DNA of 64,000 nt from Rhizobiales bacterium GAS188 (GTDB taxonomy: Bacteria; Pseudomonadota; Alphaproteobacteria; Rhizobiales; Beijerinckiaceae), in NCBI GenBank assembly GCA_900104855.1, contig FNSS01000001.1, forward strand, positions 2,170,001 to 2,234,000, written 5' to 3'. Positions 34,816-55,082 of this stretch are shown piece by piece. A program made the translations under genes and the position numbers. The notes under the pieces are model-generated. The model did no database searches and was not told the DNA's origin. It saw nothing but the letters and a program-made list of their open reading frames with translations. Position 1 is the stretch's first letter, and each line of letters starts with the position of its first letter.

Positions 34816-34840
34816 TTGACAAAATTGTCCATATCGAAAA
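34816..34840 (+). promoter_or_regulatory. Operator/promoter element GACAAAATTGTC, copy 1
   Basis: The palindrome GACAA-AA-TTGTC (34818-34829) is preceded by TT, giving a TTGACA -35 hexamer inside the operator. Downstream follows CATATCGAAAA. The same element, TTGACAAAATTGTC plus a near-identical flank, recurs ahead of the lyase gene at 39460. It lies 182 bp before the binding-protein start. Confidence 0.6.
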
Positions 34841-35010
34841 TTATGCTCTCGAGAAAAGCTGCAAAGCGAAGCGGGTGCCTTGTATCCGCAAGAGGAGTTC
34901 CATCTGCGCATGCGGGGATGACCCGATGGCGCAGTGAGCCGACATCCGCGCCGGTGTCCCTGAGACCGTGCCGTCCTGGAATTTCGGGACGAACCAAACA
35001 GGAGTTTGTC

Positions 35011-36635
35011 ATGCGCCTCTCTCGCCGCAGTATGATCCGGACCGGGCTGACCGCCGCCACGGCCTTGGCGGCGCCGCGATGGGCCCGCGCGCAGCAACGC
35101 GGGTCCGCGGATGCGCGCACATTGCGCGCCGTGATGCAGGCGGATCTGCGGGTATTCGACCCGGTCTGGACCACGGCGACGATCACCGGCTATCACGGCG
35201 CGATGATTTACGACACGCTGTTTGCGATCGATGCGAGCTTCAGGCCGCAGCCGCAAATGGTCGGCAAATGGGCTCTTTCCGACGACAAGAAGACCTATAG
35301 TTTCGAGTTGCGCGATGGGCTCGGCTGGCATGACGGCACGCTGGTGACCGCCGCGGACTGCGTCGCCTCGATCCGCCGCTGGGGACAGGTCGATCCCGGT
35401 GGCCAGGCGATCCTGGCGCGGGCTTCCGACATCTCCAGGAAGGACGACAAGACCTTCGTCATCAAGCTGAAGCAGCCCTTCGGCCTGCTGCTCGACCAGC
35501 TCGCCAAGCCGGTATCGCGCTGCTGTCATGTCATGCGCGAGAAGGACGCCCTGAAGCCCGCGACCGAGCAGGTGAGCGAGAATGTCGGCTCCGGTCCCTT
35601 CATCTTCAACCAAAAACTGGCGAAGCCCGGTGCCAGCTATACCTATGACAAGAACACAAGCTACGTGCCGCGCGGCGAGCCATCGTCCGGCCTCGCGGGC
35701 GGCAAGGTCGTGAAGCTGGACCGGGTGGTCTGGGATAATATCGGCGATCAGCAGACCGCGATGGCGGCGCTGCAGGCCGGCGAGATCGATTTCTACGAAA
35801 CACCTCCCCTCGACCTGATTTCGCAACTCGAATCAGACCCCGAGATCAAGGTCGATGTGCTGGACAAGACGGGCAATCTCGCCATCCTGCGCATGAACTG
35901 CCTGCACAAGCCTTTCAGCGAGCAGAGTGCGCGCCAGGCCCTGCTCTACCTGGTCGACCAGAACGATTTCATGAAAGCGTCCTTCGGCGATCCGAAATGG
36001 TACCGCATGGCAGGGTCGATCTTCGGCAACGACACGCTTTCGGCAACGACACGCTGATGTCGAATGACGAGAACACGGATTGGCTCAAGCACGGCGTCGA
36101 TCTCGACAAGGCTCGCAAGCTCTTCAAGGAGTCCGGATATGGCGGCGAGCCGGTCGTGATCCTGCAGGCCACCAATGTCGCCTATATCAGCGACTCCGCG
36201 CAGTTGATCGCGGCCCAGCTGCGGAAGATCGGCGTGAACGTGGAACTGGCGCCGAGCGACTGGGGCGGGGTGGTGACGCGCCGCAACAACAAGAACGCGT
36301 CGGACAAGGGTGGCTGGGACATCTTCATCACCGGCGATTCCGACTACTCGCACAACGACCCCACGGGCGTGGCCACCCTGACGGCGAACGGGTTGGACGC
36401 CTGGTACGGCTGGCCGTCCAACGACCAGTACGAGGTGCTGCGCAACAAATGGGCCGACGCCGACACGCTTGCGGAACGCCAGCAGATCGCGCGGCAGATG
36501 CAGCGGCTTGCCTGGGACTTCGTCGGCACCGTGCAGCTCGGTCAGTTCTTCAGACCTGTGGCCTATCGCAAGAACCTGCAGGGCATGATCAGCGTGCCGG
36601 AAGTCATTCCGTTCTGGAACGTGCAAAAGATCTGA
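35011..36635 (+). pseudogene. Peptide/nickel-type ABC substrate-binding protein, frameshifted
   Basis: SBP_bac_5-family periplasmic binding protein with a Tat-like leader (SRRSMIRTGLTAATALAAP). It reads cleanly to GSIFGNDTL near codon 345, then a 17-bp tandem duplication at 36022-36055 shifts the frame and a stop follows at 36057. The rest (MSNDENTDWLKHGVDLDKAR to the end IPFWNVQKI) continues in the new frame to 36635. The paralogue at 44260 aligns across both halves, confirming one original gene of about 535 codons. ATG 35011 has AGGAG upstream. Confidence 0.85.
36022..36055 (+). repeat. 17-bp tandem duplication causing a frameshift
   Basis: Two exact head-to-tail copies of TTCGGCAACGACACGCT (36022-36038 and 36039-36055). 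Deleting one copy restores the reading frame and gives GNDTLMSNDENT, matching GNGTPMSNDDNT of the paralogue. Confidence 0.92.
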
Positions 36636-36685
36636 GGACCGACGGGGCCAGCGATTTGCGGGCCGGCCCTATTCGGCCATCCTCG

Positions 36686-38209
36686 TCATGGATCGAATGG
36701 CGGACCGTTCGCCCCGATTCGCAGACCGGGCCGCAGGCGCCGGAACGGAATCGCCGTGAGATCGGCGCGGTAGGCACCTGGCGCCACGACGACCAGCACC
36801 TCGCGGGCGATCGGCTCAAAATCGGCCCGGAAATGGACCGAGCTTTTCAGGACAAGAATATCGCTCGCGGCATCGTCGATGCCGACATGGGCGAAGACGG
36901 CCCGATCGAGCACCTGCCGAGGAATCGAGCCCACCACGATTCTTACGCCTTGCTGTCCCGCCATCACCCGCAACACCGCCATGGGTCCGTGATAGAGACG
37001 GGCATTGCGTGCCATCGCGCCGGTTCCCACCACATCTCCCGACGCCAGGCGCTCGACGCGGCACTTGCAGCGCAGCGGCGCGACGTCGGGTAGACCCGCC
37101 CAACCGCCCAAACTGACGTCGATCTCCGCTCCCTCCCCGGCAGCGTGCGCCAGAGCCGCGGCCTCCGGGTCGACGAGCACGGCGACGACAGCCCCTCGCG
37201 CATCATGCTCCAGGAGTGCGCTCAAGATCGCCGTGGTATCGCCCGCGCCGCCGCCACCGGGATTGTCCTGGGTGTCCGCCATGACGATGGGACCATTCTT
37301 CGTCGCGGTATCGGCGAGGGCATGGCGCACGGCCTCGTCCGGCGTCCAGAGACGACCCGCGAATTCCGGTTCCGCCCCGGTCACTTGTGCGGCGAGACCC
37401 TCGACGGCTTGCTGGACTGCCTGCGCATCGAAGCCGTAGCCGAACACCGCCTGACCGCAATGGGCCACATCCGCACTCGGAAATCCTTGCGTGAAGGAAA
37501 GCGAGAGCAGACCCGCTTCCGCTTCATGGTATCGCAGGGCATCGTAAAGACGCCGCGCCGGCTCGACCAATGTCGACTGGAAGACTGCGCTCGTCAGAAA
37601 GTCGAGCGGGCGATAGGCACGCGCGAGTGTGCGAGCATTCCCCAGAAGGGCCTCGTAGCCTTGTGCAAGGCGCGCGCCGGTCTCCGCCATGTCCGTGTGC
37701 GGGTATTCGCGGCAAGCGTGGAGCAGATCGCAGAGCTCGACCATGTCTCGGGGCACGTTGGCGTGGAGGTCGAGGCTCGCGAGCAGGCGCACCTTCGGCC
37801 CGACGAGACGCCGGACACGGCTTAGAAGCTCGACCTCGCCACTGTCGTAAGTCTCCGTCACCATGGCCCCGTGCAGCGCCAGATACACCGCGTCGAGCGG
37901 GCCGTCATTCAAGGCGAGGTCCAGCTCCGAAAGAATCGCACCGCTGATCCGTTCGAAGGCTTCGTCGGAGACGGCGCCCGCAGGCGAGGCGCTGGCGTAG
38001 GCGACCGGAACGATCTCGTGACCGCGATGCGATGCGGAGCGGACGAAGCCCTCCAGATAAGTGTTGGCGCCCGCCACATGGTCGAGGACATCCTGGCGGC
38101 GGATGAGGCGCGTCACATTGGAGTAGCTCAGGAAAGCCTCGTAGCCGGTCTTCACCGGCGCGAAGGTGTTGGTCTCGTGCATGAATTCGGCAACGGCGAA
38201 GCGGGCCAT
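36686..38209 (-). CDS. M81 family metallopeptidase (MlrC-like)
   Basis: 507-residue protein of the M81 family, named for MlrC, which hydrolyses linearised microcystin fragments. The family opening AVAEFMHETNTFAP, the metal-binding region ALHGAMV and LDLHANVP, and the late ADTQDNPGGGGAGDTTAIL are all present. No signal peptide, so it should act on imported peptides. It follows the lyase gene with a 3-bp gap on the same strand. M81 members are recurrent neighbours of peptide ABC importers; the true substrate is usually unproven. Confidence 0.85.
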   Translation of the reverse strand: MARFAVAEFMHETNTFAPVKTGYEAFLSYSNVTRLIRRQDVLDHVAGANTYLEGFVRSASHRGHEIVPVAYASASPAGAVSDEAFERISGAILSELDLALNDGPLDAVYLALHGAMVTETYDSGEVELLSRVRRLVGPKVRLLASLDLHANVPRDMVELCDLLHACREYPHTDMAETGARLAQGYEALLGNARTLARAYRPLDFLTSAVFQSTLVEPARRLYDALRYHEAEAGLLSLSFTQGFPSADVAHCGQAVFGYGFDAQAVQQAVEGLAAQVTGAEPEFAGRLWTPDEAVRHALADTATKNGPIVMADTQDNPGGGGAGDTTAILSALLEHDARGAVVAVLVDPEAAALAHAAGEGAEIDVSLGGWAGLPDVAPLRCKCRVERLASGDVVGTGAMARNARLYHGPMAVLRVMAGQQGVRIVVGSIPRQVLDRAVFAHVGIDDAASDILVLKSSVHFRADFEPIAREVLVVVAPGAYRADLTAIPFRRLRPGLRIGANGPPFDP

Positions 38210-38212
38210 CTC

Positions 38213-39460
38213 TCATCCTTTCGAAAGCCGCAAGATCTGATCGGGAGAAGAACCGACATGCCGGCGGTAAGCGGCCGGATCGGTAGCCCCTTCACATACG
38301 AAGAGGAGTACATGGCTGTGCTCATCGAGATTGGCCGCCAGCCTGGTCTCCCGGTTCTCGAGCAGGGCGAGGAGGGCGCCGAGCCCCGACGCACCGGTTT
38401 CGCCGGCAACGATCGCCGGATCGCCCTCGATCGGGCCGGCATAGACCCGCATGGCCTCGAGCGCATAGCGATCCGGCAGGACGACGAAGAGGTCGACGCC
38501 GTCGCGGATGAGCGGCCAGGCCGGCATCGAGACGGTACCGCAGGCGAGCCCGCCCATCACGGTGTCATGGTCGCCGCTCACGGAAACAGGCCGGCCCGCC
38601 CGCACCGACTCATAGAGGCCGGCGGCAGCGATCGGCTCGAGCACGATGACCGAAGGACGCGACGCACCCCATTCCCGCCAAAGCCCTGCGATCACGGCAG
38701 CCGCGAAGGCGCCGCATCCTCCCTGGATGACGATATGCGTCGGCGGTTCCGCCGGGTCGAGTTGGCCGACGAGCTCGTGGACCAGCATCGTGTAGCCGAG
38801 CATGCACAACCTCGGCACATCCTCGTAGCCCGCATAGCCGAAATCGGAAACGACATGGCGTCCAAACCTGTCCGCATCCGTCTGGGCACAAGCCACGGCC
38901 TCGTCGTAATTGCCGTCGACCTCCACGATCTGCGCCCCGTGCCGGGCGATCGCCGTAATGCGCGCCTTGCTGACCATTCGCGGAACATAGATGACCGCGT
39001 CGACCCCGAGGCGCTGTGCCGCCCAGGCAACGGCACGTCCGTGATTGCCATCCGTCGCACAGGTCACGGTGATCCTCGGTGGAGCTGCGTCACGAGCGCC
39101 TCCATGAGGCGCCGTCACCGATATGCCCGGCGTCATGCGCCTGCCACGAGACGCTTCCCCCAGCACAACTTGCTCGACCGCATAAGGGGCGCCGAGCGCC
39201 TTGAAGCTGTCGAGGCCGAGCCGATCCGTCTCGGCCTTCACCAGAAGCGAATTGAGACCCAGACGCTTCGCCAGCCGATCGAGCCGATGCAGCGGCGTGA
39301 CCTGATACCCAGGCCAGGCCGCGATGGTTCGCTGAGCCTGCGCCATCGCCGCCTCGGTCAACCCGAAACGGCCGGCGTCATAGTCCGATGATCGATCCAC
39401 TCCCGGGTTTCGCCAGGTAATGGGCCGCCCTGTATCGAGAGGCGCGATAGCGACGGTCAT
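38213..39460 (-). CDS. dpaL: Diaminopropionate ammonia-lyase (PLP-dependent), copy 1
   Basis: 415 residues of fold type II. The enzyme converts D- or L-2,3-diaminopropionate to pyruvate and two ammonia. PLP lysine in LDSFKALGA (about residue 88), the phosphate loop GGCGAFAAAVIAG, and the TDGNHGRAVAW motif with its acidic residue are present. The second conserved region reads SDFGYAGYEDVPRLCMLGY, different from the usual DTxWxGY form. First gene of a two-gene operon with the M81 peptidase, behind the shared GACAAAATTGTC operator. Confidence 0.85.
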   Translation of the reverse strand: MTVAIAPLDTGRPITWRNPGVDRSSDYDAGRFGLTEAAMAQAQRTIAAWPGYQVTPLHRLDRLAKRLGLNSLLVKAETDRLGLDSFKALGAPYAVEQVVLGEASRGRRMTPGISVTAPHGGARDAAPPRITVTCATDGNHGRAVAWAAQRLGVDAVIYVPRMVSKARITAIARHGAQIVEVDGNYDEAVACAQTDADRFGRHVVSDFGYAGYEDVPRLCMLGYTMLVHELVGQLDPAEPPTHIVIQGGCGAFAAAVIAGLWREWGASRPSVIVLEPIAAAGLYESVRAGRPVSVSGDHDTVMGGLACGTVSMPAWPLIRDGVDLFVVLPDRYALEAMRVYAGPIEGDPAIVAGETGASGLGALLALLENRETRLAANLDEHSHVLLFVCEGATDPAAYRRHVGSSPDQILRLSKG

Positions 39461-39502
39461 CTCAGGCTTTCGCTGGTGATCGTGTGATGACGATCTTTTT
39501 TT

Positions 39503-39523
39503 CTATATAGACAATTTTGTCAA
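39503..39523 (-). promoter_or_regulatory. Operator/promoter element GACAAAATTGTC, copy 2
   Basis: On the minus strand TTGACAAAATTGTCTATATAG matches copy 1 at 34816 with two differences over the 20-odd bases; the palindrome itself is 39510-39521. It is about 50 bp upstream of the dpaL start codon and 237 bp from the divergent XRE-cupin gene. Confidence 0.65.
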
Positions 39524-39757
39524 GTTGGAACATTACCTCGATGGTGTCAGCGAGTACGAGGCTCGGAGATCGGCTCGGAGATCGGCTCGGCCGGCAGGTC
39601 GAGCGCCGCCCGCCGCCCTCCCCCATTTCCGCAGAGGCTCTTGCCCCCGGCCGCCTGCGCCAACGCCGTGACAATGCCGGCTGACGCCTGTACTGAGCGT
39701 CTTCAGCGGTCGGCTAATGCTCTTGAGCGCAAGCCCCGGGTCAACGGAGCCTGTCGA

Positions 39758-40406
39758 ATGAGGAAGGCAGCCAAGCAGGTTGCGACAACCACGCCCTCTA
39801 CGATCGAACTGCAGTTCGGAGAGAGGATACGTCAGTGGCGTCGCGAGCACGGCCACACCTTGGAGGAGGTGTCGGCCATGACGGGCATCGGCGCATCCAC
39901 GCTCTCGAAAATCGAAACGGGCCGATCCGGAGCAAGCTTCACCACGCTGATACGGCTGTCACGCGGCCTGAACCTCTCGGTGGACGAGCTCACCGGCGCT
40001 GTTCCGAACAGCCTTCCCGGCCTGCGCACCTCCACGCTGCGCGGCCAGGGCGCCCATGTGGAGAACGCCCAGTATTCGTACGAGCTGCTCTCGGGAGACA
40101 TTACGCGCAAGCTGCTCTTTCCCTGCCTGATTCGTGTCAAGGCGCGCTCGATCGATGAGTTCGACACCTGGAACCTGCATGCGGGCGAGGAGTTCGCCTA
40201 TGTCTTGTCCGGTGTGGTCTGGCTGTACTATGAGGGCTACAAGCCGAGCTGCTTTCGGGCCGGAGACTCGTTCCAGTATGACAGCGGCGTGCCGCATGCA
40301 TTCGTGGGCGAAGGTCAAGAGGACCCGGTGGTGATGTCCGTCAGCTATGATGCGAGTGGCTCGGGCAACCAGGCTGGCGACGATCGCGCACGATCGCAGC
40401 CTCACG

Positions 40407-40420
<14 letters not shown>
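39758..40420 (+). CDS. XRE-cupin transcriptional regulator
   Basis: 220 residues: an HTH-XRE domain at about residues 20-75 (GERIRQWRREHGHTLEEVSA, then GIGASTLSKIETGRSG) and a C-terminal cupin (about 110-200, WNLHAGEEFAYVLSGVVWL, FRAGDSFQYDSGVPHAF). Such fusions sense small ligands through the cupin and regulate amino-acid, peptide or polyamine catabolism. Divergent from dpaL, so it is the natural candidate to bind the GACAAAATTGTC sites. GGAG stands 8 bases before ATG 39758. Its 3' end overlaps the importer's last gene tail-to-tail by 14 bp. Confidence 0.87.
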
Positions 40421-41434
<1,014 letters not shown>

Positions 41435-41438
<4 letters not shown>

Positions 41439-42433
41439 GCTACGGCGAGCTCTTCGGCATGCCAACATGCGGTAGCGTGCCCCGGCGAAATCGCCCGCAT
41501 CTCCGGCGCCTCCACGCGGCAGCGGCTGGTCGCAAAGGCGCAGCGCTCGGCAAAGCTGCATCCGGCAAACGGATCGCGCAGATTGGGCACGACGCCAGGT
41601 ATCTCCGGCAGAGGCTGGCGCCGTTTCCGGGACCGGTCGCGGACGGACTGCATCAAGCCGCGCGTATAGGGATGCGCGGGGTTGCCGAACAGTTCGAGCA
41701 CGCCGGCCTCTTCGACGATCTTGCCGGCATACATGACGATGACGCGCTGACAGGTCTCCGCCACGACGCCGAGGTCGTGCGTGATCAGCATGACCGCGGT
41801 GCCCGAGCGCACCTTGAGGTCGAGGATCAATCGCAAGATCTGCGCCTGCATCGTCACGTCGAGCGCGGTCGTCGGCTCATCGGCGATCAGCAATTTCGGC
41901 GAGCAGGCAAGCGCCATCGCGATCATCGCACGTTGCCGCATGCCGCCGGAAAGCTGATAGGGATAGTCCCTTGCCCGGCGCGCCGGCTCGGCGATGCGCA
42001 CCTGGTGCAACATCTCCTCCGCACGCTCCCATGCCTCCCGTCGCGATAGCTTGGCATGGATGCGCAGGGTCTCGGCGATCTGGTCGCCGATCCTGTGCAC
42101 CGGGTTCAGGCTCGTCATCGGCTCCTGGAAGATCATCGCGATCCGGTTGCCGCGGATCCGCCTGATCTCCGGTTCCGTCACCTTCAGCAGATCCTGTCCT
42201 TCGAAACGGACCGAGCCGCCGACAACGCGGCCGCTGCGTCGCGGCAACAGGCGCAGAATGGAAAGCGCGGTCACGCTCTTGCCGCAGCCGGACTCTCCGA
42301 CGATGCCCAGCGTCTCGCGGCTGTCCACGTGAAAGCTCACACCGCCCAAAGCTCTGGTGACGCCGCCCTCGGCAATGAACTGCGTCTGCAATCCCTCGAC
42401 GTCCAATAGGGTCTTGTTTTCCAAGACTATCAC
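41435..42433 (-). CDS. Peptide ABC transporter ATP-binding protein (DppD-type)
   Basis: 332-residue ABC ATPase: Walker [11 protein letters not shown]-loop [10 protein letters not shown], signature [15 protein letters not shown], Walker [13 protein letters not shown], and the C-terminal Cys-containing oligopeptide extension ([12 protein letters not shown]). Pairs with the DppF-type subunit to drive import. I start at GTG 42433, which overlaps the stop of the permease gene (GTGA). An ATG further upstream at 42538 lies inside the permease gene and is not credible. Confidence 0.88.
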
Positions 42434-43308
42434 CTTCGCGCCAGACGCGGGTCCAGCATGTCGCGCAATCCGTCTCCGAGGATATTCACGGCGAGCACCA
42501 CGATCGCCAGGCAAATGCCGGGAGCGAAGATCGTCCAAGGCGCAATGGAGAGATAGAGACGGGAGGTGGAGATCATGTTTCCCCAGCTCGGAATCTCCGG
42601 AGGGATGCCGGCGCCGAGAAAGCTCAGTGCGGCTTCGGTCAGGATGGCATTGGCGCCGACATAGGCCGTCTGCACGATCAGCGGCCCGATGGTGCTGGGC
42701 AATATGTGCCGCCGCAGCACCCTGGGCAGGCGCGCGCCTCCGGTAAAGGCGGCCTCCACATAGGGCTGCTCGCGGGCGCTGAGCACGACGGAGCGCACCA
42801 GGCGCGCCACGGTCGGGATCTGCGGGATCATGATGGCCACGATCACGATGAAGACCCCGCCCCGCGTCAACGACACCAGGGCGATGGCGAGCAGGATGGT
42901 CGGGATCGACATCAACCCGTCCATGATCCGCATCGCCACGCCGTCGAAGCGGCGGCTATAGCCGGCAAAGAGACCGATCAGCAGCCCGCCCGCGGCGGCG
43001 CTGACCGCGCCGGCGAATCCCACCAGCAGCGAGACGCGCGCCCCATAGACCGTGCGGGCGAAGACGTCGCGCCCCAGATGATCGGCACCGAACCATTGCG
43101 CAGCGGATGGCGCCTGCAGCCGCTTGAAGGGGTCGAGCGCCAGCGGGTCGCCGGCAAAGAGCGGTGCGGCCAGCGCCAGCGCCACCAGAATTGCCAGGAT
43201 GCCCCCGCCCAGGAGGACACTGGAATTGTGGCGTGCGAAACGCGCGAGACCGCTCGGCTTCGGCAGGGTGGCGCGCGCCGCGATCGGCGAAGTGACGGTG
43301 TCGACCAT
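42430..43308 (-). CDS. Peptide ABC transporter permease (DppC-type)
   Basis: 292-residue inner-membrane permease with about six helices; an N-terminal helix (VLLGGGILAILVALALAAPLF) is followed by the OppC-type DHLGRDVFARTVYGARVSL and the EAA-type cytoplasmic loop (EAAFTGGARLPRVLRRHILPS). It dimerises with the DppB-type permease. ATG 43308 is 2 bp after the stop of that gene. The long upstream open frame is antisense to nothing but reads inside dppB and is ignored. Confidence 0.9.
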   Translation of the reverse strand: MVDTVTSPIAARATLPKPSGLARFARHNSSVLLGGGILAILVALALAAPLFAGDPLALDPFKRLQAPSAAQWFGADHLGRDVFARTVYGARVSLLVGFAGAVSAAAGGLLIGLFAGYSRRFDGVAMRIMDGLMSIPTILLAIALVSLTRGGVFIVIVAIMIPQIPTVARLVRSVVLSAREQPYVEAAFTGGARLPRVLRRHILPSTIGPLIVQTAYVGANAILTEAALSFLGAGIPPEIPSWGNMISTSRLYLSIAPWTIFAPGICLAIVVLAVNILGDGLRDMLDPRLARR

Positions 43309-43310
43309 CG

Positions 43311-44252
43311 TCAGTAGCGGATCCGAGGATCGATCAGCGTATAGCTGAGATCGACGATCAGGTTGATGATGATGTAGGCGCCGGAGAACACGATCAGGAC
43401 ACCCTGGATGATGGGATAGTCGCGGTTGTTGATCGCATCGACTGTCAATCTGCCGATCCCTGGAATATTGAACACGGTTTCGGTGATGACGACGCCGCTG
43501 ATCAGGAAGGCGATGCCGATGCCGATGACGGTCAAGATCGGGACGCCGGCATTCTTGAGGGCGTGGCGAAGCAGCATGGACGAGGTCGAGGCGCCTTTGG
43601 CCGCCGCCGTCCGCATGTAATCCTCCGACAGGACTTCCAGCATGCTGGCGCGCGTGATGCGCGCGATGAGCGCGAGGTAGCCGAGGCCAAGCGCAATGCT
43701 CGGCAAGATCAAATGGCCGAACCAAGGCCATAGGCCGTGTTCGATCGAAACATAGCCTTGCACCGGCAGCCAACGCAGCGAGATGGCGAACCAGTAGATC
43801 AGGAAATAGCCGATGACGAAGACGGGAACGGAGAAGCCCAGGCTGGAGAGGCCCATCAGCATGCGGTCACCCAGGCCGCCCGCACGCCAGGCCGCACAGA
43901 CTCCGGCAAGCACTGCGATAACGACCGAATGGATGATGGTGACGAGCGAAAGCGAGAGCGTCGGTTCCAGGCGCTGCGAGATCAGCGCCATCACGGGCTT
44001 GTCCGAGAAGATCGATGTCCCGAGATCGCCGCGCGCAATCCCCAGGATCCAGCGGGCGAACTGAGCCGACAAGGGATCGTTCAGTCCGAGCCGCTCCCGG
44101 ATATTGGCGATGTTCTCGGGCGTTGCCGTGTCGCCCGCGATGATGGCGGCCGGATCTCCCGGCGAGAGGCGCAGCAGCAAGAACACGAACAGCCCCACCA
44201 TCGCCATGACGACGATGGTCGAAAGGAGCCGGCGGACCATATAGGCGCCCAT
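43311..44252 (-). CDS. Peptide ABC transporter permease (DppB-type)
   Basis: 313-residue permease: first helix STIVVMAMVGLFVFLLLRLSPGDPAA is the standard OppB opening (LSPGDPA), the EAA loop reads YMRTAAAKGASTSSMLLRHALKN, and the C-terminus ends TLIDPRIRY. It forms the translocation pore with the DppC-type subunit. ATG 44252 (MGAYMVRRLL) is 7 bp after the binding-protein stop, so it is in the same operon. Confidence 0.9.
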   Translation of the reverse strand: MGAYMVRRLLSTIVVMAMVGLFVFLLLRLSPGDPAAIIAGDTATPENIANIRERLGLNDPLSAQFARWILGIARGDLGTSIFSDKPVMALISQRLEPTLSLSLVTIIHSVVIAVLAGVCAAWRAGGLGDRMLMGLSSLGFSVPVFVIGYFLIYWFAISLRWLPVQGYVSIEHGLWPWFGHLILPSIALGLGYLALIARITRASMLEVLSEDYMRTAAAKGASTSSMLLRHALKNAGVPILTVIGIGIAFLISGVVITETVFNIPGIGRLTVDAINNRDYPIIQGVLIVFSGAYIIINLIVDLSYTLIDPRIRY

Positions 44253-44259
44253 TATCGCC

Positions 44260-45864
44260 TCAGGCCTTCTCGACATTCCAGAACGGCACGATCTCCGGCA
44301 TGCCGATGATGCCCTTGATGTTCTTGCGATAGGCCGTCGGGGTGAGATGCTGGCCGAGAAGCACGGAACCGACGAATTCCCACCAGAGGCGCTGCATCTG
44401 CCGCGCGATGCCCTTGCGCTCTTCCAGCGTGTCGGCGTCCGCCCATTTGTTGCGGAGCAGCTCATACTCGTCGTTGGACGGCCAGCCGTACCAGGCCTTC
44501 GGGCCGTTGGCCAAGAGGAAGGAGGTGCCGAGCGGATCGCCATGCGAGTAGTCGGAGTCTTGCGAAATGAAGATGCTCCAGCCGCCCTGATCGACCGGTT
44601 CCTTATTGGCACGGCGGGTCACGACGCCGCCCCAATCGCTGGGCGCGAGCTCGACATTGATGCCCACCTTGCGCAGTTGGGCCGCGAGATATTGCGAGCA
44701 ATTGCTTTGCCAATCGGCGTTGGTCGCCTGCAGGATGACGACCTTTTCGCCGGCATAGCCTGCCTCCTTGAGCAGCTGGCGCGACTTGTCCAGATCGACA
44801 CCCTGCTTGAACCAGCCGGTATTGTCGTCATTGGACATCGGCGTGCCGTTTCCGAAAGGCGAGGCGACCGTGCGGTACCATTTCGGATCGCCGAAGGCCG
44901 CCTGCATGAACGCCTTCTGATCGACGAGATGCAGGATCGCCTGGCGAGCCTTGACGTCGTTGAACGGCTTCTGCAGGAAATTCATCCGCAGATAGGTGTC
45001 CTCCCCGTTCTTGTCGAGCACATCGACCGTGATGTTCGGATCAGCCTGGAGCTGGGCGATGAGATCGAGCGGCGGCCTTTCGACATAGTCGATTTCACCG
45101 GCCTGCAGCGCGGCGAGCGCGGTTTGCGGGTCGGCGATATTTTCCCAGATGACGCGGTCGAGCTTGGCGACCTTGCCTCCGGCGAGGCCATTGGGAGCTT
45201 CGCTGCGCGGCACATATTTGGCGTTGCGATCATAGGTGAAGCTGGCACCGGGCTTCGCCAGGGCGTGGTTGAAGGTGAAGGGGCCGGAGCCGATATTGGC
45301 GCTGATCTGCTCCGTCGCCGGCCGGCTCGCATCCTTCTCGCGCATGATGAAGCAGCACGGGGTGGTCGCTTTTCCCAGGAGCTCGACCAGAAGCCCGAAG
45401 GGCTGCTTCAGCACGATGACGAAGGTCTTGTCGTCCTTCGCCGAAATGTCGGCGGCGCGCGCCATGATCGCTTGGCCGCCTGGGTCGACCTGGCCCCAGC
45501 GGCGGATCGATTCGACGCAGTCCCTAGCAGTGACATTCGTGCCGTCATGCCAGCCGAGGCCGTCGCGCAGCTCGAACGTATATGTCTTCTTGTCGTCGGA
45601 CATGCCCCAGCGGCCGACCATCTGCGGCTGCGACTTGAAGCTCGAGTCGAGCGAGAACAGCGTGTCGTAGATCATCGCGCCGTGATCGGCGGTGATGTTC
45701 GCCGTCGTCCAGATCGGATCGAAGACGCGAAGATCGCTCGCCTTCACGACGCGGAAAGTCCGCGCATCCGACGGCGTAGCCTCGGCCCGCGGGGCGCGCG
45801 GCGCCATCGACACTGCGCCGGCGGCGAGGCCGGCCTGCATCAAGCGTCGGCGTGAGATGCGCAT
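44260..45864 (-). CDS. Peptide-type ABC substrate-binding protein (SBP_bac_5), intact
   Basis: 534-residue periplasmic binding protein with a twin-arginine leader (MRISRRRLMQAGLAAGAVSM). Family segments include LRVFDPIWTTANITADHGAM, YTFELRDGLGWHDGT and SGPFTFNHALAKPGASF. It is a close paralogue of the frameshifted gene at 35011 and should supply the importer encoded downstream. Ligands in this family are short peptides, glutathione-like molecules, opines or metal chelates; the sequence does not say which. Second gene of the operon after the M20 amidohydrolase. Confidence 0.9.
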   Translation of the reverse strand: MRISRRRLMQAGLAAGAVSMAPRAPRAEATPSDARTFRVVKASDLRVFDPIWTTANITADHGAMIYDTLFSLDSSFKSQPQMVGRWGMSDDKKTYTFELRDGLGWHDGTNVTARDCVESIRRWGQVDPGGQAIMARAADISAKDDKTFVIVLKQPFGLLVELLGKATTPCCFIMREKDASRPATEQISANIGSGPFTFNHALAKPGASFTYDRNAKYVPRSEAPNGLAGGKVAKLDRVIWENIADPQTALAALQAGEIDYVERPPLDLIAQLQADPNITVDVLDKNGEDTYLRMNFLQKPFNDVKARQAILHLVDQKAFMQAAFGDPKWYRTVASPFGNGTPMSNDDNTGWFKQGVDLDKSRQLLKEAGYAGEKVVILQATNADWQSNCSQYLAAQLRKVGINVELAPSDWGGVVTRRANKEPVDQGGWSIFISQDSDYSHGDPLGTSFLLANGPKAWYGWPSNDEYELLRNKWADADTLEERKGIARQMQRLWWEFVGSVLLGQHLTPTAYRKNIKGIIGMPEIVPFWNVEKA

Positions 45865-45903
45865 GGAAGCCTCCTTTGTGATTGTTGCGGTAGGTCCCGC
45901 CTT

Positions 45904-47445
45904 TCAGGACCGGCGGTCGTCGATGTGCGGATGAGGGTGATGACCCTCGTGGATCGTGGAGCGTGCGAAGCCGCCTGGCTTGCGCTGCTCACGCGGCCGA
46001 AATGGTCCGCGCGCGTCGGTGTCGGCGCGATATCCGGGGAGGTCCGGCCGGGCATCGTCGGGAATGGGGTCGACGAAGGGCGTCGCCTCGAGATGAGCGC
46101 GATGCTCGGCTTGCGCCTCCTCGATCAACTCTTCGTTCATCAGGAGATCGAGCGCGGTGCTGGCCATCACTTTGGCAGCGTGTTCCATGCCCTTATGGGC
46201 AGCGGGCGCCTTGCCCTGCGCGACGAGTTGCCATGAATGGCCAGGCGTCCCGATCGCATAGACAGCGCCGAGAAGCCCCACTGTCGGCACGACCCAGCTG
46301 ACATTGCCGACATCCGTCGAGCCGATGAGCGTGCCGTCACCGCTGCGCGGGGGGCAAATGATGTCGCAGAGCGGGGCGAGCTTTTTCGATCCCGAACCAA
46401 CGCGGTGATAGGCGGAAGCGATGGCCTCGTCCCCGACCGTTTCCTGGATGCGTGCCGCAAAGGCGCGATCGGCATCGTCGAACACCGGCGGGCCGAGACG
46501 CCCCAGGTGCGTGTGCATCAGCCGCTCGAGCGCCTGGTTGCCGAGGAGGTTCGCCTCGCCGGTCAGCATCCGGCTGCTCACCGTCGTCTCGGTCATCAAG
46601 GCGGCGCCTTCGGCGATCTTCCGCACCCGAAGAACCAGGCCGCGCAGCTCGGAGATGTCTCCGCCGCGGACGACGTAGCGCACGGTCGCCCGGCCCTGAA
46701 CGACGTTTGGCGCGCTGCCGCCCGAATCGGTAATGGCGTAGTGAATGCGCGCCCGGCTCGGCATGTGCTCGCGCATATAGTTGACGCCGACATTCATCAG
46801 CTCGACCGCGTCGAGGGCGCTGCGCCCCAGATGCGGCGCCGCGGCCGCATGCGAGGTTCGACCCACGAAGTGGAAATTCATCTCATTGCAAGCGAGCGAA
46901 ACGGGATTGGCGACGCCGGCGAAGGCCGCCGGATGCCAGGTGATCGCGACATCCACATCCTTGAAGGCACCCGCCCGCACCATATAGCCTTTGCCGGATC
47001 CACCTTCTTCGGCCGGACACCCATAGTAACGGATGCGGCCTTTCAGCCGCCGCCTGGCCAGATAATCCTTGACGGCGGTCGCGGCCTGTAAGGCGCCGGC
47101 GCCGAGCAGATTATGTCCGCAGCCATGCCCGTTCGCGCCCGCCAGCAAAGGTCGCGGTTCGGCAATGCCGGCTTCCTGGCTCAACGCCGGCAAGGCATCA
47201 TATTCGCCAAGTATTGCGATGACCGGGCCGCCTTCGCCGGCCTCTCCCATGACGGCCGTCGGCAGGCCGCCGACGCCGCGCGTGACCCGGAAGCCTTCTT
47301 CCTGGAGCAGGACTGCGTGCTCCTCGGAAGACCGGAATTCTTCGTAGTTGAGCTCCGGCATTTCCCATACGCGATCGCTCAGCGCGAAGAATTTGTCGCA
47401 TTTCTCTTCGACAAATGGCCAGACCGCTTCCGCATTCGACACCAT
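45904..47445 (-). CDS. M20 family amidohydrolase (AbgB-like)
   Basis: 513-residue zinc/manganese amidohydrolase. Metal-binding strings GANGHGCGHNLLGAGALQAA (His/Asp region), GCPAEEGGSGKGYM (catalytic Glu pair) and VAITWHP are present, and a dimerisation domain lies in the middle. AbgB cleaves p-aminobenzoyl-glutamate; relatives deacylate amino acids. The C-terminal about 50 residues (rich in His/Asp/Arg) look non-family. Start ATG 47445 suits the family; GTG 47472 is the alternative. Cytoplasmic, first gene of the importer operon. Confidence 0.85.
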   Translation of the reverse strand: MVSNAEAVWPFVEEKCDKFFALSDRVWEMPELNYEEFRSSEEHAVLLQEEGFRVTRGVGGLPTAVMGEAGEGGPVIAILGEYDALPALSQEAGIAEPRPLLAGANGHGCGHNLLGAGALQAATAVKDYLARRRLKGRIRYYGCPAEEGGSGKGYMVRAGAFKDVDVAITWHPAAFAGVANPVSLACNEMNFHFVGRTSHAAAAPHLGRSALDAVELMNVGVNYMREHMPSRARIHYAITDSGGSAPNVVQGRATVRYVVRGGDISELRGLVLRVRKIAEGAALMTETTVSSRMLTGEANLLGNQALERLMHTHLGRLGPPVFDDADRAFAARIQETVGDEAIASAYHRVGSGSKKLAPLCDIICPPRSGDGTLIGSTDVGNVSWVVPTVGLLGAVYAIGTPGHSWQLVAQGKAPAAHKGMEHAAKVMASTALDLLMNEELIEEAQAEHRAHLEATPFVDPIPDDARPDLPGYRADTDARGPFRPREQRKPGGFARSTIHEGHHPHPHIDDRRS

Positions 47446-47675
47446 GGGCGATCGTCGCTCCTTCGTTTCCACCTGCCTTGCCGCGACTATTCGGCAAGAC
47501 CATTCCCGGTTGCTGCCCGAGCCCCGCTTGCGGCGCCGAGTTGGCTTGTTTGTTCTGGCGAAGAAGCTAACGCCTCAGCCGTGAGGTAGGCGCTCTAATT
47601 GCTCATCCGGCACGCACAATCCTTGCGTCGAGGGCCGGCTGCGCGCATTGTCGTTGCGCGCCCCAGGCGGAACGA

Positions 47676-48161
47676 TCACTCGGTGATCGGGATCGAGACA
47701 CCTGTCTTGACGCGATCCATTGCGACCAGCGTCCTGAATTTCGTGACATTGTGGTCGCCGAAGAATAGGCGCCGCGTCATCGCTTCATACTCGGCCATGT
47801 CGGTGACGTTGACGACCAGGACGAAGTCGACTTCCCCGGTGACGTAGTAACATTGCTGCACTTCCGGAGCGGCGGCGAAATTCCTCTTGATCGAGTCGAG
47901 AAGGTCGATGCGTTCGTTCTCGACCGATACCTCCACGATGAGAGTGATGGGGCGTCCGACCTTCTCGGGCGCAATGATCGCGACGTTGCCCATGATGATG
48001 CCTCGATCCTGCATGCGCTTGATGCGTCGCTGGACCGCCGCGGCCGACAGGTTGACTTTAGCGCCGATGACCCGTTGCGGTGTTTGATTGTCGAGTTGCA
48101 GCATTCTCAGGATCTTGCGATCAAAGGCGTCGATTTCCGGCGGTGTAATCTTGTTCAGCAT
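47676..48161 (-). CDS. Lrp/AsnC family regulator
   Basis: 161 residues: N-terminal HTH (EIDAFDRKILRMLQLDNQTP, then AKVNLSAAAVQRRIKRMQD) and a C-terminal RAM ligand-binding domain (CYYVTGEVDFVLVVNVTDM). Lrp-type proteins sense amino acids. Its position between the amidohydrolase operon and the divergent dpaL copy 2 suggests it controls one or both. Promoter likely in the 392-bp gap upstream, which holds a 19-bp palindrome. Confidence 0.88.
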   Translation of the reverse strand: MLNKITPPEIDAFDRKILRMLQLDNQTPQRVIGAKVNLSAAAVQRRIKRMQDRGIIMGNVAIIAPEKVGRPITLIVEVSVENERIDLLDSIKRNFAAAPEVQQCYYVTGEVDFVLVVNVTDMAEYEAMTRRLFFGDHNVTKFRTLVAMDRVKTGVSIPITE

Positions 48162-48553
48162 GGTCGGATCAACTCAATCTGTTGCTTACCCCCGGCGGAG
48201 AAAGCCATCGAAATCGGGACGGCGCAACGATTCGTTTCCGTGCGAAGCGGGTTGCGATCGCTTGTCGGACGCGGCGTCCGACGCGCCCCGCCGCGGCTGA
48301 TCGGCCTCACCTCGTTCCCGGCCGTCCGGTCGCCATCCGCGATGTCAATCAAACACGGGACACCTCGCAAACACGGCACATATCGAGTTTTTCGCTCGTT
48401 TCGAATGACGGATTCGAGGCCAATTCACGCTCGGCTTCGCACATCTTCTTCGCGACGCGGCCTGACTGCGAAGATGCCGCAGAGGCCGCAATTCGGGGAT
48501 CATGAAGGTGACCTAAGAGCCCGCATGATCTCGATAGGCGAGGAGATGAGACC
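48162..48553. promoter_or_regulatory. Divergent control region with a 19-bp palindrome
   Basis: GTCGGACGC-G-GCGTCCGAC (48264-48282), perfect nine-base arms, lies about 100 bp upstream of the Lrp-type start and 270 bp from the lyase start. It may be an operator or a hairpin. No gene is supported in this gap. Confidence 0.4.
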
Positions 48554-49771
48554 GTGCTCGTTTTGAACGACAGCCCGAAGAACGGGGCGCTGCTGCCGGC
48601 CTATGCCGGGCTCCTCGGGCGGGATGCTCCGGCTCTGGTTCTCTCCTATCCGAGCCTGTCGGATGATCGCAGCCCCACGCCCCTGCATGATCTGCAGGCT
48701 TTGGCGGGCGCCCTCAGGATCGGCCGCCTCTACGCCAAGGATGAAGGGTTTCGTCCGGAGCTTCGCAGCTTCAAGGCGCTGGGCGGCGCCTTCGCGGTGG
48801 CCAGGCTCCTGCAGGTTTGGGCGCAAGAGCAGCTCGGCCGCCCGGTCGCGCCCTCGGAGCTGATGACGCCGGAAATCCGGGCCATCGCCGCCGGCAAGAC
48901 GGTCACTTGCGCCACGGCAGGCAATCATGGCCGGTCGGTCGCTGCCGGCGCCCGGCTGCTCGGCTGCCGGGCCGTCATCTTCGTGCACCGGCATGTTGCG
49001 GCGGAGCGCCTCGAGGCGATGCAGGCGGCCGGCGCCGATATCGAAGTCGTGCAGGGAAGCTATGACGACAGCGTGGCGGAATGCACCCGCGTCGCTGCGG
49101 AACGCGGCTGGCAGATTGTCTCCGACACGACATGGCCCGGCTATGAGACGATACCCGGCTATGTGATGCAGGGCTATACCGTGATGGTCGATGAGGCGCT
49201 TTCGGCCATCGAAGCCAAGGGCGAGCGGCTGACCCATATTTTCGTGCAGGGCGGGGTTGGGGGGTTTGCCGCCGCCGTCGCCGGGCATGCGGCGCTTCGC
49301 TATGGCGCCGACCGGCCGAAGATCGTGGTCGTGGAGCCGGAAAGGGCGAACTGCCTGCTGCAGAGCGCCCAGGCCGGAGCGCCCATCCGCATCGACGAAG
49401 GCGAACCGACCATCATGGGGATGCTCGCCTGTTACCAACCTTCGCTGGTCGCCTGGCGCATTCTGCAAGCGACGGCGCATGCCTTCATGGATGTGCCCGA
49501 GAGCGGAGCGGTCGAGGTCATGCGCAGGCTCGCCGCCCCGCGCGACGGTGACCCCGCCATCGTGGCCGGCGAGTCGGGAGGTGTCGGCCTTGCCGGCCTC
49601 ATGCAGGCTGCCGCCGATCCCAAGACCCGCTCCTCGCTCGCGCTCACCGAGGCGTCGCGCGTGATGGTCATCATCAGCGAAGGTGCGACCGCGCCACGTC
49701 GCTACCGCGAGATCGTCGGCATGAGCGCGGAGGCGGTGCTGGCACGGGCCCCGGCGGATATTGCGGGCTGA
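48554..49771 (+). CDS. Diaminopropionate ammonia-lyase-like, copy 2
   Basis: 405 residues, fold type II PLP enzyme. RSFKALGGAFAVARLL holds the PLP lysine and GGVGGFAAAVAGHAALRYG the phosphate loop; SDTTWPGYETIPGYVMQGYT matches the DAPAL consensus better than copy 1. In contrast the TDGNHG motif has changed to TAGNHG, so one acidic residue present in copy 1 is lost. GTG 48554 follows GAGGAGATGAG. Its function may differ from copy 1 in stereo- or substrate preference. Pairs with the acyl-CoA synthetase gene downstream. Confidence 0.82.
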   Translation: MLVLNDSPKNGALLPAYAGLLGRDAPALVLSYPSLSDDRSPTPLHDLQALAGALRIGRLYAKDEGFRPELRSFKALGGAFAVARLLQVWAQEQLGRPVAPSELMTPEIRAIAAGKTVTCATAGNHGRSVAAGARLLGCRAVIFVHRHVAAERLEAMQAAGADIEVVQGSYDDSVAECTRVAAERGWQIVSDTTWPGYETIPGYVMQGYTVMVDEALSAIEAKGERLTHIFVQGGVGGFAAAVAGHAALRYGADRPKIVVVEPERANCLLQSAQAGAPIRIDEGEPTIMGMLACYQPSLVAWRILQATAHAFMDVPESGAVEVMRRLAAPRDGDPAIVAGESGGVGLAGLMQAAADPKTRSSLALTEASRVMVIISEGATAPRRYREIVGMSAEAVLARAPADIAG

Positions 49772-49897
49772 GGCTTTGGGCCTTCGACGTCGCCGCGGGC
49801 ATCGCATCTGGGAGGATGTCGAGCGAATCCGGAGGCTGAGGCTGCGCCGAGGCCGGACGGCGCTCTCGTTTTCGGCCATAGGCCAAGGAGATATGTA

Positions 49898-51430
49898 ATG
49901 GGCTTCATGGCGATCAAGGCAGGCAGGCGCCGCATCGATGGAGCAGCGTTCGAGAAGCGGGTGCTCATGATCGCCTCCGGCCTCGCCGGGATCGGCGTTG
50001 CGGCAGGGGACGCCGTCGCTTTGCTGATGCGCAACGATACGTGCTTTTTGGAAGCGACCTTTGCCATTCAGCATCTCGGCGCATATGCGGTTCCGCTGAA
50101 TTGGCATTGCAAGGCCGACGAGCTCCTCTACATCATCGAGGATTGCGCCGCGAAGATCCTGATCGTCCATGCGGATTTGCTGAGGGGTCTCCGCCCTCGC
50201 CTGCCGGACATGATCGCCGTCATCGCGGTCGCGACGCCAGACCACATCGCCGAGGCTTTTCGGGTTCCGCACGAAAGCCGCGGCGTTCCTGCCGGCCTCA
50301 GGGCCTGGGATCGATGGATCGACGAGCAGACGCCCATGCAGGCTCCGACTCAGCCGGCTCCGGAGAGCCTCATCTATACGTCCGGGACCACCGGCTCGCC
50401 CAAAGGGGTGCGCCGCAAGGCCCAGACATCCGAACAGGCGATCCTCGGCGAAATCATGCGCGCCAGGGTCTTCGGCATCGGAGCTGGCGCACGCGTCCTC
50501 GTCGCCGCGCCCCTCTATCACACCGCCCCCAATCTGTTCGCGTCGCGGGCCATTCGCAAGGGAGAGTTGCTCGTCTTGCCGCCACGCTTCGATCCCGAAG
50601 GCCTGCTTCAGCATATCGAGCGCCATGCGATGACACATCTCTACGCGGTTCCCACCATGTTCGCGCGCATGCTCAACCTGCCCGAACGGATGCGCCGGCG
50701 TTACGACTTGTCCTCCCTCTCATTCGTGCTGCACGCGGGCGGTCCTTGCCCTCCTGCCGTCAAGCGGGCCATGATCGAATGGCTGGGCCCGATCATCAAC
50801 GAATATTACGGCTCGACGGAGCACGGCCCGCTCAGCTTCAGCACGAGCGCCGACTGGCTGGCCCGGCCCGGAACCGTGGGGCGCGCCGCGCCTTCCGCGA
50901 CGATCAGCATCCAGAACGATACGGGCCTTCAGCTGCCGCCGGGCGAGGTCGGCGAAGTGCTCGGGCACAATGCGGCATGCTCTGATTTCACCTATCTGCA
51001 TCGGGAGGGCGCAAGGGCAGAGCTGCAGCGCGGCGATCTCCTGATGACCGGCGATCTCGGCTATCTCGATGCGGACGGCTACCTGTTCCTGTGCGATCGC
51101 AAGCGCGACATGGTGATCTCCGGCGGCGTCAACATCTATCCGGCCGAGATCGAAAGCGTCCTCATGGAACATGACGGCGTTGCGGATTGCGTGGTCTTCG
51201 GCATACCGCACCCGGAATTCGGCGAAGCCGTGATGGCGATCGTGGAGCCGCAGCATGAGCGGCAGCTCGATCCCGAGATGATCCGCGTCTTCCTGGCGGG
51301 CCGGCTGGCATCCTACAAGGTGCCGGCCCGCATCGAGGTCCGCCAGGGATTGCCGCGCGAGGAATCCGGCAAGATCCGAAAGCGCTTGCTGCGCGACCCC
51401 TATTGGCAGGGCGCGGGACGGACCATCTGA
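49898..51430 (+). CDS. AMP-forming acyl-CoA synthetase/ligase
   Basis: 510-residue ANL-superfamily enzyme that activates a carboxylic acid with ATP and CoA. The AMP-binding P-loop is YTSGTTGSPKGVRRK, the A5 motif NEYYGSTEHG, A7 TGDLGYLD, the hinge DRKRDMVISGG, and the catalytic lysine is in EESGKIRKRLL. The substrate is not evident; short- or medium-chain acids, or oxalate-type acids, are possible. ATG 49898 has AAGGAG 7 bases upstream. It follows lyase copy 2 by 126 bp and probably shares its transcript. Confidence 0.85.
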   Translation: MGFMAIKAGRRRIDGAAFEKRVLMIASGLAGIGVAAGDAVALLMRNDTCFLEATFAIQHLGAYAVPLNWHCKADELLYIIEDCAAKILIVHADLLRGLRPRLPDMIAVIAVATPDHIAEAFRVPHESRGVPAGLRAWDRWIDEQTPMQAPTQPAPESLIYTSGTTGSPKGVRRKAQTSEQAILGEIMRARVFGIGAGARVLVAAPLYHTAPNLFASRAIRKGELLVLPPRFDPEGLLQHIERHAMTHLYAVPTMFARMLNLPERMRRRYDLSSLSFVLHAGGPCPPAVKRAMIEWLGPIINEYYGSTEHGPLSFSTSADWLARPGTVGRAAPSATISIQNDTGLQLPPGEVGEVLGHNAACSDFTYLHREGARAELQRGDLLMTGDLGYLDADGYLFLCDRKRDMVISGGVNIYPAEIESVLMEHDGVADCVVFGIPHPEFGEAVMAIVEPQHERQLDPEMIRVFLAGRLASYKVPARIEVRQGLPREESGKIRKRLLRDPYWQGAGRTI

Positions 51431-54500: not shown

Positions 54501-54860
54501 ATCGATGACGATGCGATCGACGCTCTCGGTGTAGCCGGACACGAGTTCGTGGAGCTCCTCGGGGTCGAGCGATTGCGACAAGGCGGTGAAGCCGGAAAGA
54601 TCGGCGAACAGAATGGTGACCTGCCGCCGTTCGCCCGTCAGGGATCTGGCTGGCGCCGCGACCGCATCCGCCGCGGTCCGGCGCGCCGAGATGGCGGCCA
54701 GGAGCTTCTTGCGGTGGCCGAGCGAGCTGACGCCCAGCTCCTTCAGGTCCGCCTCGGCAAGCTCCGTCAGGACCGCGAAGTCGATATGGTTTTCCGCGAA
54801 GGCATGCGCATATTGCCCGAGCCCGAGCGTCTCCAGCCATGCTCCGACATCCGTTTCCAT
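51573..54860 (-). CDS. SAM-domain adenylate/guanylate cyclase with AAA ATPase and TPR regions
   Basis: 1095-residue signalling protein. Order: SAM domain (about residues 1-60, VGAWLETLGLGQYAHAF), class III cyclase (about 75-250; metal Asp in LFADLSGFTALSQ and HMGDGVMALFGAP), an AAA/STAND ATPase (Walker A RGEAGIGKTRLVDEM), then long helical TPR-like repeats to the end. The layout is typical of rhizobial multi-domain cyclases. Regulation by an unknown signal through the ATPase is inferred. Convergent with the CoA ligase; GTG 54914 is an alternative start. Confidence 0.87.
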   Translation of the reverse strand: METDVGAWLETLGLGQYAHAFAENHIDFAVLTELAEADLKELGVSSLGHRKKLLAAISARRTAADAVAAPARSLTGERRQVTILFADLSGFTALSQSLDPEELHELVSGYTESVDRIVIDCGGSVDKHMGDGVMALFGAPVAHDDDPLRAARAALDIHEALGRLSDRAGRRLQAHIGIASGEVVAGGIGRAGGQDYTVLGDSVNLSARLVAAAGPGQTLISDEVHGALSGRAECDALGDMQFKGIDAGVRVWCLRGISGEQPAASRSPFVGRAAELEQFAGMIGACLARRSGQVVYVRGEAGIGKTRLVDEMRRIAEAQGFAVHRALVLDFGVGKGRDPIRDIVRSLLDLPASAGAEERRAMAERAVASGLVAAERLAFLYDLLDLPPSGEWRALYDAMDNAARNRGKRALVGALTEHSCGRSPLLIVVEDLHWADAHLLGHLGALAAALAGGPGLLVMTSRVEGDPIDPAWRAGCRGTPFATIDLGPLRREEALNLAGSFIDATQRLALACIDRAGGNPLFLEQLLHNAEEGSEEAIPASIQSLVLARMDRLQALDRQAFQAASVIGQRFELPLLRKLIDVPDYVCDGLLTHALVLPEGDGFLFAHALIQEGAYSSLLRARRRDLHRIAAEWFAALDPALRAQHLDRAGDERAPRAYLEAAASQRLAYHADAALRLAERGLEIVRDDDERYELICLKGKLQRDLGDITASIASYRQAIAAVSNEVNLCRAQLGLAEGLRVSEGLDEALALLEAAQVCAERHDLVPELARLHHLRGNILFPLGKIEGCRAEHERGLVYAKRSGSPEAEARSLGGLADAAYAQGRMRTAFAHFNRCVEISREHGFGRIEVANRSMAGFSRVYLNQPRQACDDGAAAVRNAALVGQPRAEMLGETINVFASYELGEYERMREHLEREMRLIRQLGARRFEAQNLEMQGRLLLDGGRREDAVALLRQALAVAREIGLQFSGPKALSALSRAVADEAERDRLLAEAEELLRRGSVGHNHLWFYRDAMEAMLVAGDAKAALRYADLLEGYAASEPLPWTEIFVARCHALAGVQRDGADAAIRQDLARIQTVLVDAGLKAFLAPIEAALAA

Positions 54861-55082
54861 GGCCTGATCCGGATCGGCTCCTTGCCGTGCTCCTTCGCAG
54901 ATCTCGGATGCCACGATAGCATAGGCTCGGGGACTTGTTCAGGGATTGCCGCCTTTTCCATTTCGGGTAGGAAGGCCAGGGCTTGTGAGGCCGAACGCGA
55001 TGGTAGCGGTGTTCCAAGGATCACGACCGGCAACGCACAGCCCCGGGGTTGCGCCGCCGCGCCCCGCTATTCGCGCTGCCGC

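Follow-up and report, generated by a model that had tools for sequence, protein, structure and literature searches.

Described systems and the GAS188 locus

2,3-Diaminopropionate (DAP) occurs as a constituent of plant toxins, antibiotics and siderophores, and little literature on genes for its breakdown outside uric acid degradation was found among open-licence papers. The closest described system is the ygeW-ygeX-ygeY-hyuA cluster of Escherichia coli, which belongs to the reductive uric acid pathway and in which an M20-superfamily hydrolase and a diaminopropionate ammonia-lyase (DAPAL) lead to pyruvate and ammonia; YgeY and YgeX together transform albizziin (3-ureido-DAP) into pyruvate, and YgeX is equally active on both DAP isomers (PMC12507026). 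XRE-cupin regulators are mostly local repressors, as is PsdR of Pseudomonas aeruginosa, which controls the peptide-binding protein DppA3 of the DppBCDF importer and the metallodipeptidase MdpA (PMC7901475). Here, we analyse a stretch of 64,000 nucleotides of Rhizobiales bacterium GAS188 (contig FNSS01000001.1, positions 2,170,001-2,234,000; hereafter the window), whose genome comprises 9.09 Mb in three contigs. Between 35.0 and 51.4 kb, the window contains an island with two DAPALs, two hydrolases, a Dpp-type importer and two regulators. We propose that this composite island serves to catabolise a small N-substituted DAP, either amide- or ureido-linked and possibly a short peptide, a reading to which we assign a probability of about one half.

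As in the E. coli cluster, an M20-superfamily hydrolase accompanies DAPAL in the island; however, its M20 enzyme is of the AbgB type, and the importer, the M81 peptidase and the regulators are additional. BLAST alignments give 46% identity to E. coli AbgB over 466 amino acids and 30% to AbgA over 238, with no match to YgeY at E 1e-3, and the YgeY model NF009555 is absent from the five NCBIfam matches of this enzyme. Unlike the p-aminobenzoyl-glutamate hydrolase AbgAB of E. coli, it has no AbgA partner, being the single M20 gene among those scanned between 34 and 52 kb. The likeness to PsdR-DppA3-MdpA consists in an XRE-cupin gene adjoining a peptide-binding protein of a DppBCDF importer and a metallopeptidase; it is one of gene description, and no DAPAL is named in the part of that account drawn on here (PMC7901475). 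The whole gene set was not found described in the open-licence literature searched.

A role in the uric acid pathway was rejected, because the SsnA marker is not found above its cut-off of 455.5 bits in the genome, where the best match scores 145. The HyuC-type carbamoylase of the genome lies far off (40%, at C1:7.89 Mb).

Gene content and proposed pathway

The genes of the island are the following (coordinates of the window, strand, assignment and supporting matches):

35011..36635, +, SBP1, family-5 solute-binding protein, broken (frames 35011-36057 and 36057-36635); SBP_bac_5 on the first piece
36686..38209, -, M81 metallopeptidase, MlrC-like; PF07364 and PF07171
38213..39460, -, DAL1, DAPAL; NF006058, 419 bits (cut-off 276)
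39641..40420, +, XRE-cupin regulator; HTH_3 and Cupin_2
40407..41438, -, DppF-type ATPase; ABC_tran and oligo_HPY
41435..42430, -, DppD-type ATPase, start approximate; ABC_tran and oligo_HPY
42430..43308, -, DppC-type permease; BPD_transp_1
43311..44252, -, DppB-type permease; BPD_transp_1 and its N-terminal domain
44260..45864, -, SBP2, intact family-5 solute-binding protein; SBP_bac_5, 240.7 bits
45904..47472, -, M20 amidohydrolase, AbgB-like; TIGR01891, 248.8 (cut-off 153.75)
47676..48161, -, Lrp/AsnC regulator; AsnC_trans_reg and HTH
48554..49771, +, DAL2, DAPAL; NF006058, 460 bits (cut-off 276)
49898..51430, +, AMP-forming acyl-CoA synthetase, PRK12406 type; NF009071, 711.8 (cut-off 701)

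Profile searches against Pfam and NCBIfam uphold the genes as named in a first-pass annotation of this DNA, including the complete Dpp/Opp-type importer, whose binding protein, two permeases and two ATPases all have Pfam matches and whose frames are open across 40407-45864 (-). The two binding proteins recognised there are indeed present, but only SBP2 is intact: the reading frame of SBP1 shifts at an exact 17-bp tandem duplication (36022-36055), which would be either a real duplication or an assembly error. Both are of one type, since the two pieces of SBP1, aligned separately, are each 69-70% identical to the matching parts of SBP2.

DAL1 precedes M81 with a spacing of 3 bp, and this pair is divergent from the XRE-cupin gene. 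A leftward run begins with M20 and continues through SBP2, DppB, DppC, DppD and DppF, with gaps of 39, 7 and 2 bp as far as DppC and an overlap of 4 bp between DppD (start approximate) and DppF. Lrp sits 203 bp upstream of this run, and DAL2 followed by the synthetase are both divergent from Lrp. This arrangement suggests three transcription groups (DAL1-M81, M20-SBP2-DppBCDF and DAL2-synthetase), which, judging from gene spacing, would be operons. The GC content, 63-66% within the island and 58-70% for the window as a whole, is uninformative on recent import.

In the pathway proposed, an N-substituted DAP would be taken up by SBP2 and DppBCDF, its substituent would be removed by the AbgB-like M20 enzyme encoded at the head of the importer run, and the freed DAP would be converted to pyruvate and ammonia by the DAPALs. 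DAL1, with a two-base active site, is expected to act on D- and L-DAP, and DAL2, devoid of the Asp120 base, would be L-selective. The XRE-cupin protein (divergent from DAL1-M81) and Lrp (divergent from DAL2) would likely sense the substrate locally, and local repression of uptake and processing genes by the former fits the layout of the island. M81 and the CoA ligase may play a part in the pathway as well.

Two lineages of ammonia-lyase, and a third gene

DAL1 and DAL2 both pass the DAPAL model NF006058 and fall below the strict equivalog TIGR03528 (305 and 309 of the 532 bits required). Identity is 42% between the two and 37-38% between either of them and E. coli YgeX (DAL1, 37%). In a tree of 142 sequences, left from 193 matches after removal of duplicates and fragments, DAL2 belongs to a clade of 30 (support 0.96) that also takes in rhizobia and bacteria of the same family, and many DAPALs of these clade members adjoin Lrp. 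A fresh duplication was rejected, because the two enzymes are only 42% identical and stand apart in the tree. Thus, the label of DAPAL paralogues that they had received holds as far as the family is concerned, but understates their divergence: DAL1 and DAL2 are two lineages.

For the E. coli enzyme, Lys77 and Asp120 have been put forward as potentially catalytic (PMC4000059). When aligned with that enzyme, DAL1 has both positions conserved, and DAL2 keeps Lys77 and has Ala in place of Asp120. As Asp120 is presumably the residue acting on the D-isomer, DAL2 is predicted to have lost the use of D-DAP and to be L-selective. Both enzymes retain Asp189, a position that we take to be important in DAPALs. 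Across the 142 sequences, Asp occupies position 120 in 136 and Ala in six, which is not a natural frequency: part of the set was collected with a search pattern (motif ATDGNHGR or SFKALG) that under-samples Ala variants, and it is therefore biased to Asp, which one of the two motifs contains. The six are DAL2, a third DAPAL of the same genome (L106), L022, L028, L035 and L036, the last two being doubtful DAPALs.

The genome has three DAPAL matches in total. The third (L106:8985-11919; C1, about 168-171 kb) is 53% identical to DAL2, shares its Ala at the Asp120 position and scores 269.5 of 532 with TIGR03528. An ArgE/DapE-type M20 gene (TIGR01910, 239; cut-off 218) overlaps it by 4 bp, an Lrp gene is divergent from it, and a Dpp set with a binding protein lies about 4.5-9.5 kb upstream. 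Since the genome carries 36 M20 matches in 9.09 Mb, the estimated chance that a given point has one within 10 kb is about 8%, and both the window island and this third locus have one.

DAPAL neighbourhoods in other genomes

DAPAL surroundings were surveyed in 107 loci of other genomes, comprising a set of 80 (the best 80 of the pattern scan mentioned above) and a set of 27 (28 loci minus the third locus of GAS188 itself), with no DAPAL sequence in common. The 27 loci were chosen by score and partly for transporter matches, so that their transporter rate is biased upward. Neighbours were counted on all open frames with hidden Markov models built from the neighbours found here, which miss M20 types unrepresented among them; DAPAL was recovered in 80/80. 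For 57 of the 80, the sequence covers 9 kb or more of the 10 kb within 5 kb either side of DAPAL, the rest being cut by contig ends.

In 48 of the 107 loci (33/80 and 15/27), DAPAL has an M20-superfamily hydrolase no more than 1.5 kb away. Widening the distance to 10 kb adds few loci (36/80 and 16/27), indicating adjacency rather than chance density. On this basis, DAPAL-M20 pairing is widespread, and the idea of a process in which N-substituted DAP would be trimmed and ammonia then eliminated is well founded. The partner is most often a HyuC-type N-carbamoylase (within 1.5 kb in 23/80); at the same distance in this set, DoeB2-like enzymes occur at 9 loci and nitrilases at 17, 14 of them with HyuC. 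The sequence of uptake, deacylation and elimination put forward in the first-pass annotation is supported by this pairing and by the albizziin precedent (PMC12507026), although not as regards its particular type of M20, as discussed below.

Other components are less constant. A family-5 binding protein is found within 10 kb of DAPAL in 6/80 and, in the set favouring transporters, 11/27; M81 in 2/80 and 1/27; and Lrp, within 1.5 kb, in 17/80 and 9/27. Loci with another DAPAL within 10 kb are rare (1/80, 0/27), the single case being a Mesorhizobium locus (L171) with the order Lrp-DAPAL-HyuC-DAPAL-DoeB2-like M20. The whole gene set occurs in 0/80 loci of the larger set, and none of the loci examined contains the full combination.

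Among 289 class-level genomes, GAS188 included, the window M20 is matched in 18 others (E<=1e-60), and seven others hold a DAL1-like lyase together with such a match (G227, G234, G242, G254, G325, G377 and G420; identity of the G242 M20 is just 35%). The two genes lie on different contigs in 7/7; as several of these genomes are in short contigs and a contig end truncates the DAPAL of G377, some of these pairs may yet be linked.

Five DAPALs of Gemmatimonadetes/Gemmatimonadota (L157, L159, L196, L197 and L200) share a neighbourhood, c29-c30-DAPAL-c31, without any scored hydrolase, where the lyase possibly has a different role.

The nearest islands

The island most similar to that of GAS188 belongs to Alcaligenes pakistanensis (L138) and forms one run of genes: an RpiR-type regulator, DAPAL, HyuC (hydantoinase/carbamoylase family, 431 bits; cut-off 204), a family-5 binding protein (SBP5), DppB, DppC, a 547-amino-acid ATPase gene, a nitrilase (distantly related to N-carbamoylputrescine amidase, 103 of 410), a YgeY-type M20 (371 bits; cut-off 321) and an M81 that is 42% identical to the window M81 and cut by the locus end. 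Another locus (L093) contains a nitrilase, DAPAL, a PRK09237-like amidohydrolase, a DgaE-like lyase, DppFDCB, SBP5 and M81. DAPAL, an SBP5-Dpp importer and M81 are thus common to these two loci and the window island; L138 differs in having a carbamoylase, a nitrilase and a YgeY-type enzyme, where the window island has an AbgB-type M20 instead.

L138 is at the same time one of the DAPAL-HyuC-nitrilase operons, together with those of Achromobacter (L135), Cupriavidus (L136) and Zeimonas arvi (L139, SBP5-DppBCDF-DAPAL-HyuC-nitrilase). As in the island, DAPAL is accompanied in them by hydrolases expected to free the nitrogens of DAP, and L138 and L139 also carry SBP5-Dpp, L138 having M81 as well; in contrast, carbamoylase and nitrilase replace the AbgB-type M20. 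Acting together, HyuC and nitrilase could strip alpha- and omega-ureido groups, which makes 2,3-diureidopropionate or albizziin natural guesses for the substrates of those operons. We know of no characterisation of any of them.

Runs of this kind recur in proteobacteria (L132, L135-L137, L139, L140, L142, L144, L145, L147, L153, L158, L167 and L173), often next to an RpiR-type gene or to a trio of genes that, as a guess from their sizes, could encode a TRAP transporter. They look like systems for ureido-diaminopropionate catabolism.

Importer, M81 and CoA ligase relatives

SBP2 scores 67 of 1005 bits with the DppA equivalog, below the level for dipeptide specificity, and its nearest PDB chain, 8vdx, is labelled merely solute-binding protein. 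SBP2-type transporters are found more often near M81 than near DAPAL (7 of 20 SBP2-centred loci, plus L093), although that M81 belongs to another subfamily, about 30% identical to the window M81. At L272-L276, L278, L289, L290 and L093, this importer type recurs with M81, PRK09237-like amidohydrolases or DgaE-like pyridoxal phosphate (PLP) lyases, which suggests another pathway of import, trimming and elimination.

The window M81 contains the domains of its family and has 3iuu and 7ylq (Microcystinase C) as PDB relatives, and it falls below the microcystinase MlrC model NF041767 (164 of 999 bits). In L297, L300 and L305, a gene of about 560-580 amino acids directly precedes M81 relatives of the window type; that of L300 belongs to the dihydroxy-acid/6-phosphogluconate dehydratase family. 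For the CoA ligase, the nearest PDB chains among the matches listed (to E 1e-40) are feruloyl- and fatty-acyl-CoA synthetases. Adjoining the island beyond this gene, the window encodes at 51573-54914 (-) a 1113-amino-acid fusion of SAM domain, adenylate cyclase, AAA and TPR.

Alternative explanations

Several results weigh against a joint action of these genes. An AbgB-type M20 stands beside DAPAL in 0 of the 107 loci of other genomes, and DAPAL is found in 0/12 loci centred on AbgB-type M20 genes (four of them in GAS188 itself, some on short contigs) and in 0/20 centred on M81; the genome has another four AbgB-like matches (62-67%), of which one is partial and interrupted by a stop. The SBP2-type transporter mostly occurs without DAPAL, which is present at 2 of 22 SBP2-centred loci (none of 20, plus L093 and L095, of similar rank and both with DAPAL), although lower-ranked SBP2 matches beside DAPAL do occur (e.g., L099, L120 and L129). 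Moreover, the placement of DAL1 in the tree is unsupported (0.37), and this lyase lacks close relatives, the best match being 49% identical, or 53% where a truncated sequence is counted. Thus, the conserved co-occurrence that the first-pass annotation had named as a check was not encountered in the loci examined, and its association of importer and DAPAL holds for some DAPAL loci but seldom when the search starts from SBP2. Such counts would be expected if the island were two or three unrelated neighbouring modules, namely a general importer of peptides or acyl-amino acids with an AbgB-type hydrolase of its own, M81-DAPAL under XRE-cupin, and Lrp-DAL2. AbgB-type M20 genes are indeed accompanied by Dpp permeases in 3/12 loci (L125 being M20-DppFDCB-SBP5-M81), and Lrp-DAPAL pairs are common alone. 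We consider this explanation possible but rather doubtful, given that in GAS188 two DAPAL lineages flank one importer, a second DAPAL nearby being so rare elsewhere, and that DAPAL, Dpp and M81 recur together in L093 and L138.

The composite island would also have to be reinterpreted if the DAPALs had shifted to other beta-substituted amino acids, such as D-/L-serine or beta-N-substituted alanines, and the island served for another amino acid derivative. All three enzymes score well below the TIGR03528 cut-off, and DAL2, having lost Asp120, shows the motif ATAGNHG, with an Ala that we take to be as in L-threonine dehydratases; the agreement of DAL1 and DAL2 with NF006058 and their conserved Lys77 and Asp189 positions nevertheless make a change of substrate unlikely. 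Far more improbable is a pathway for the plant compound beta-N-oxalyl-diaminopropionate (beta-ODAP), one of the substrates suggested in the first-pass annotation, in which M20 would free oxalate, the ligase would produce oxalyl-CoA and the DAPALs would use L-DAP. The order of steps is chemically possible, an L-configured ODAP would suit the predicted selectivity of DAL2, and the part consulted of a review listing the ODAP degradation pathway of rumen bacteria as not identified contains nothing contradictory (PMC7590051). However, the best match in the genome to oxalyl-CoA decarboxylase scores 214 bits against a cut-off of 739, and the ligase, proposed there to act on oxalate, belongs to the PRK12406 group with the feruloyl- and fatty-acyl-CoA synthetases as its nearest solved relatives. 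For these reasons, and since HyuC-type partners are common and albizziin offers a precedent, ureido-DAP is a better general guide than ODAP to what the composite island may degrade.

Significance

The island is locally coherent and evolutionarily composite; its parts are familiar, and their combination is new among the loci examined. A bolder and distinctly tentative extension, to which we attach little probability, is an unreported importer-fed DAP route in which an AbgB-type M20 would free both isomers and the two lyase lineages would divide the task, DAL1 using D and L and DAL2 only L; taken with the DAPAL-HyuC-nitrilase operons, it would indicate that use of N-substituted DAP outside the uric acid pathway is widespread in proteobacteria.

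The ties between DAPAL and N-carbamoyl or N-acyl hydrolases in many bacteria turn vaguely annotated operons into a testable class with a shared logic, in which the nitrogen substituent would be trimmed and ammonia then eliminated. The GAS188 island asks whether AbgB-type enzymes belong to this class, and the wider pattern of DAPAL and carbamoylase may prove more useful than the island itself.

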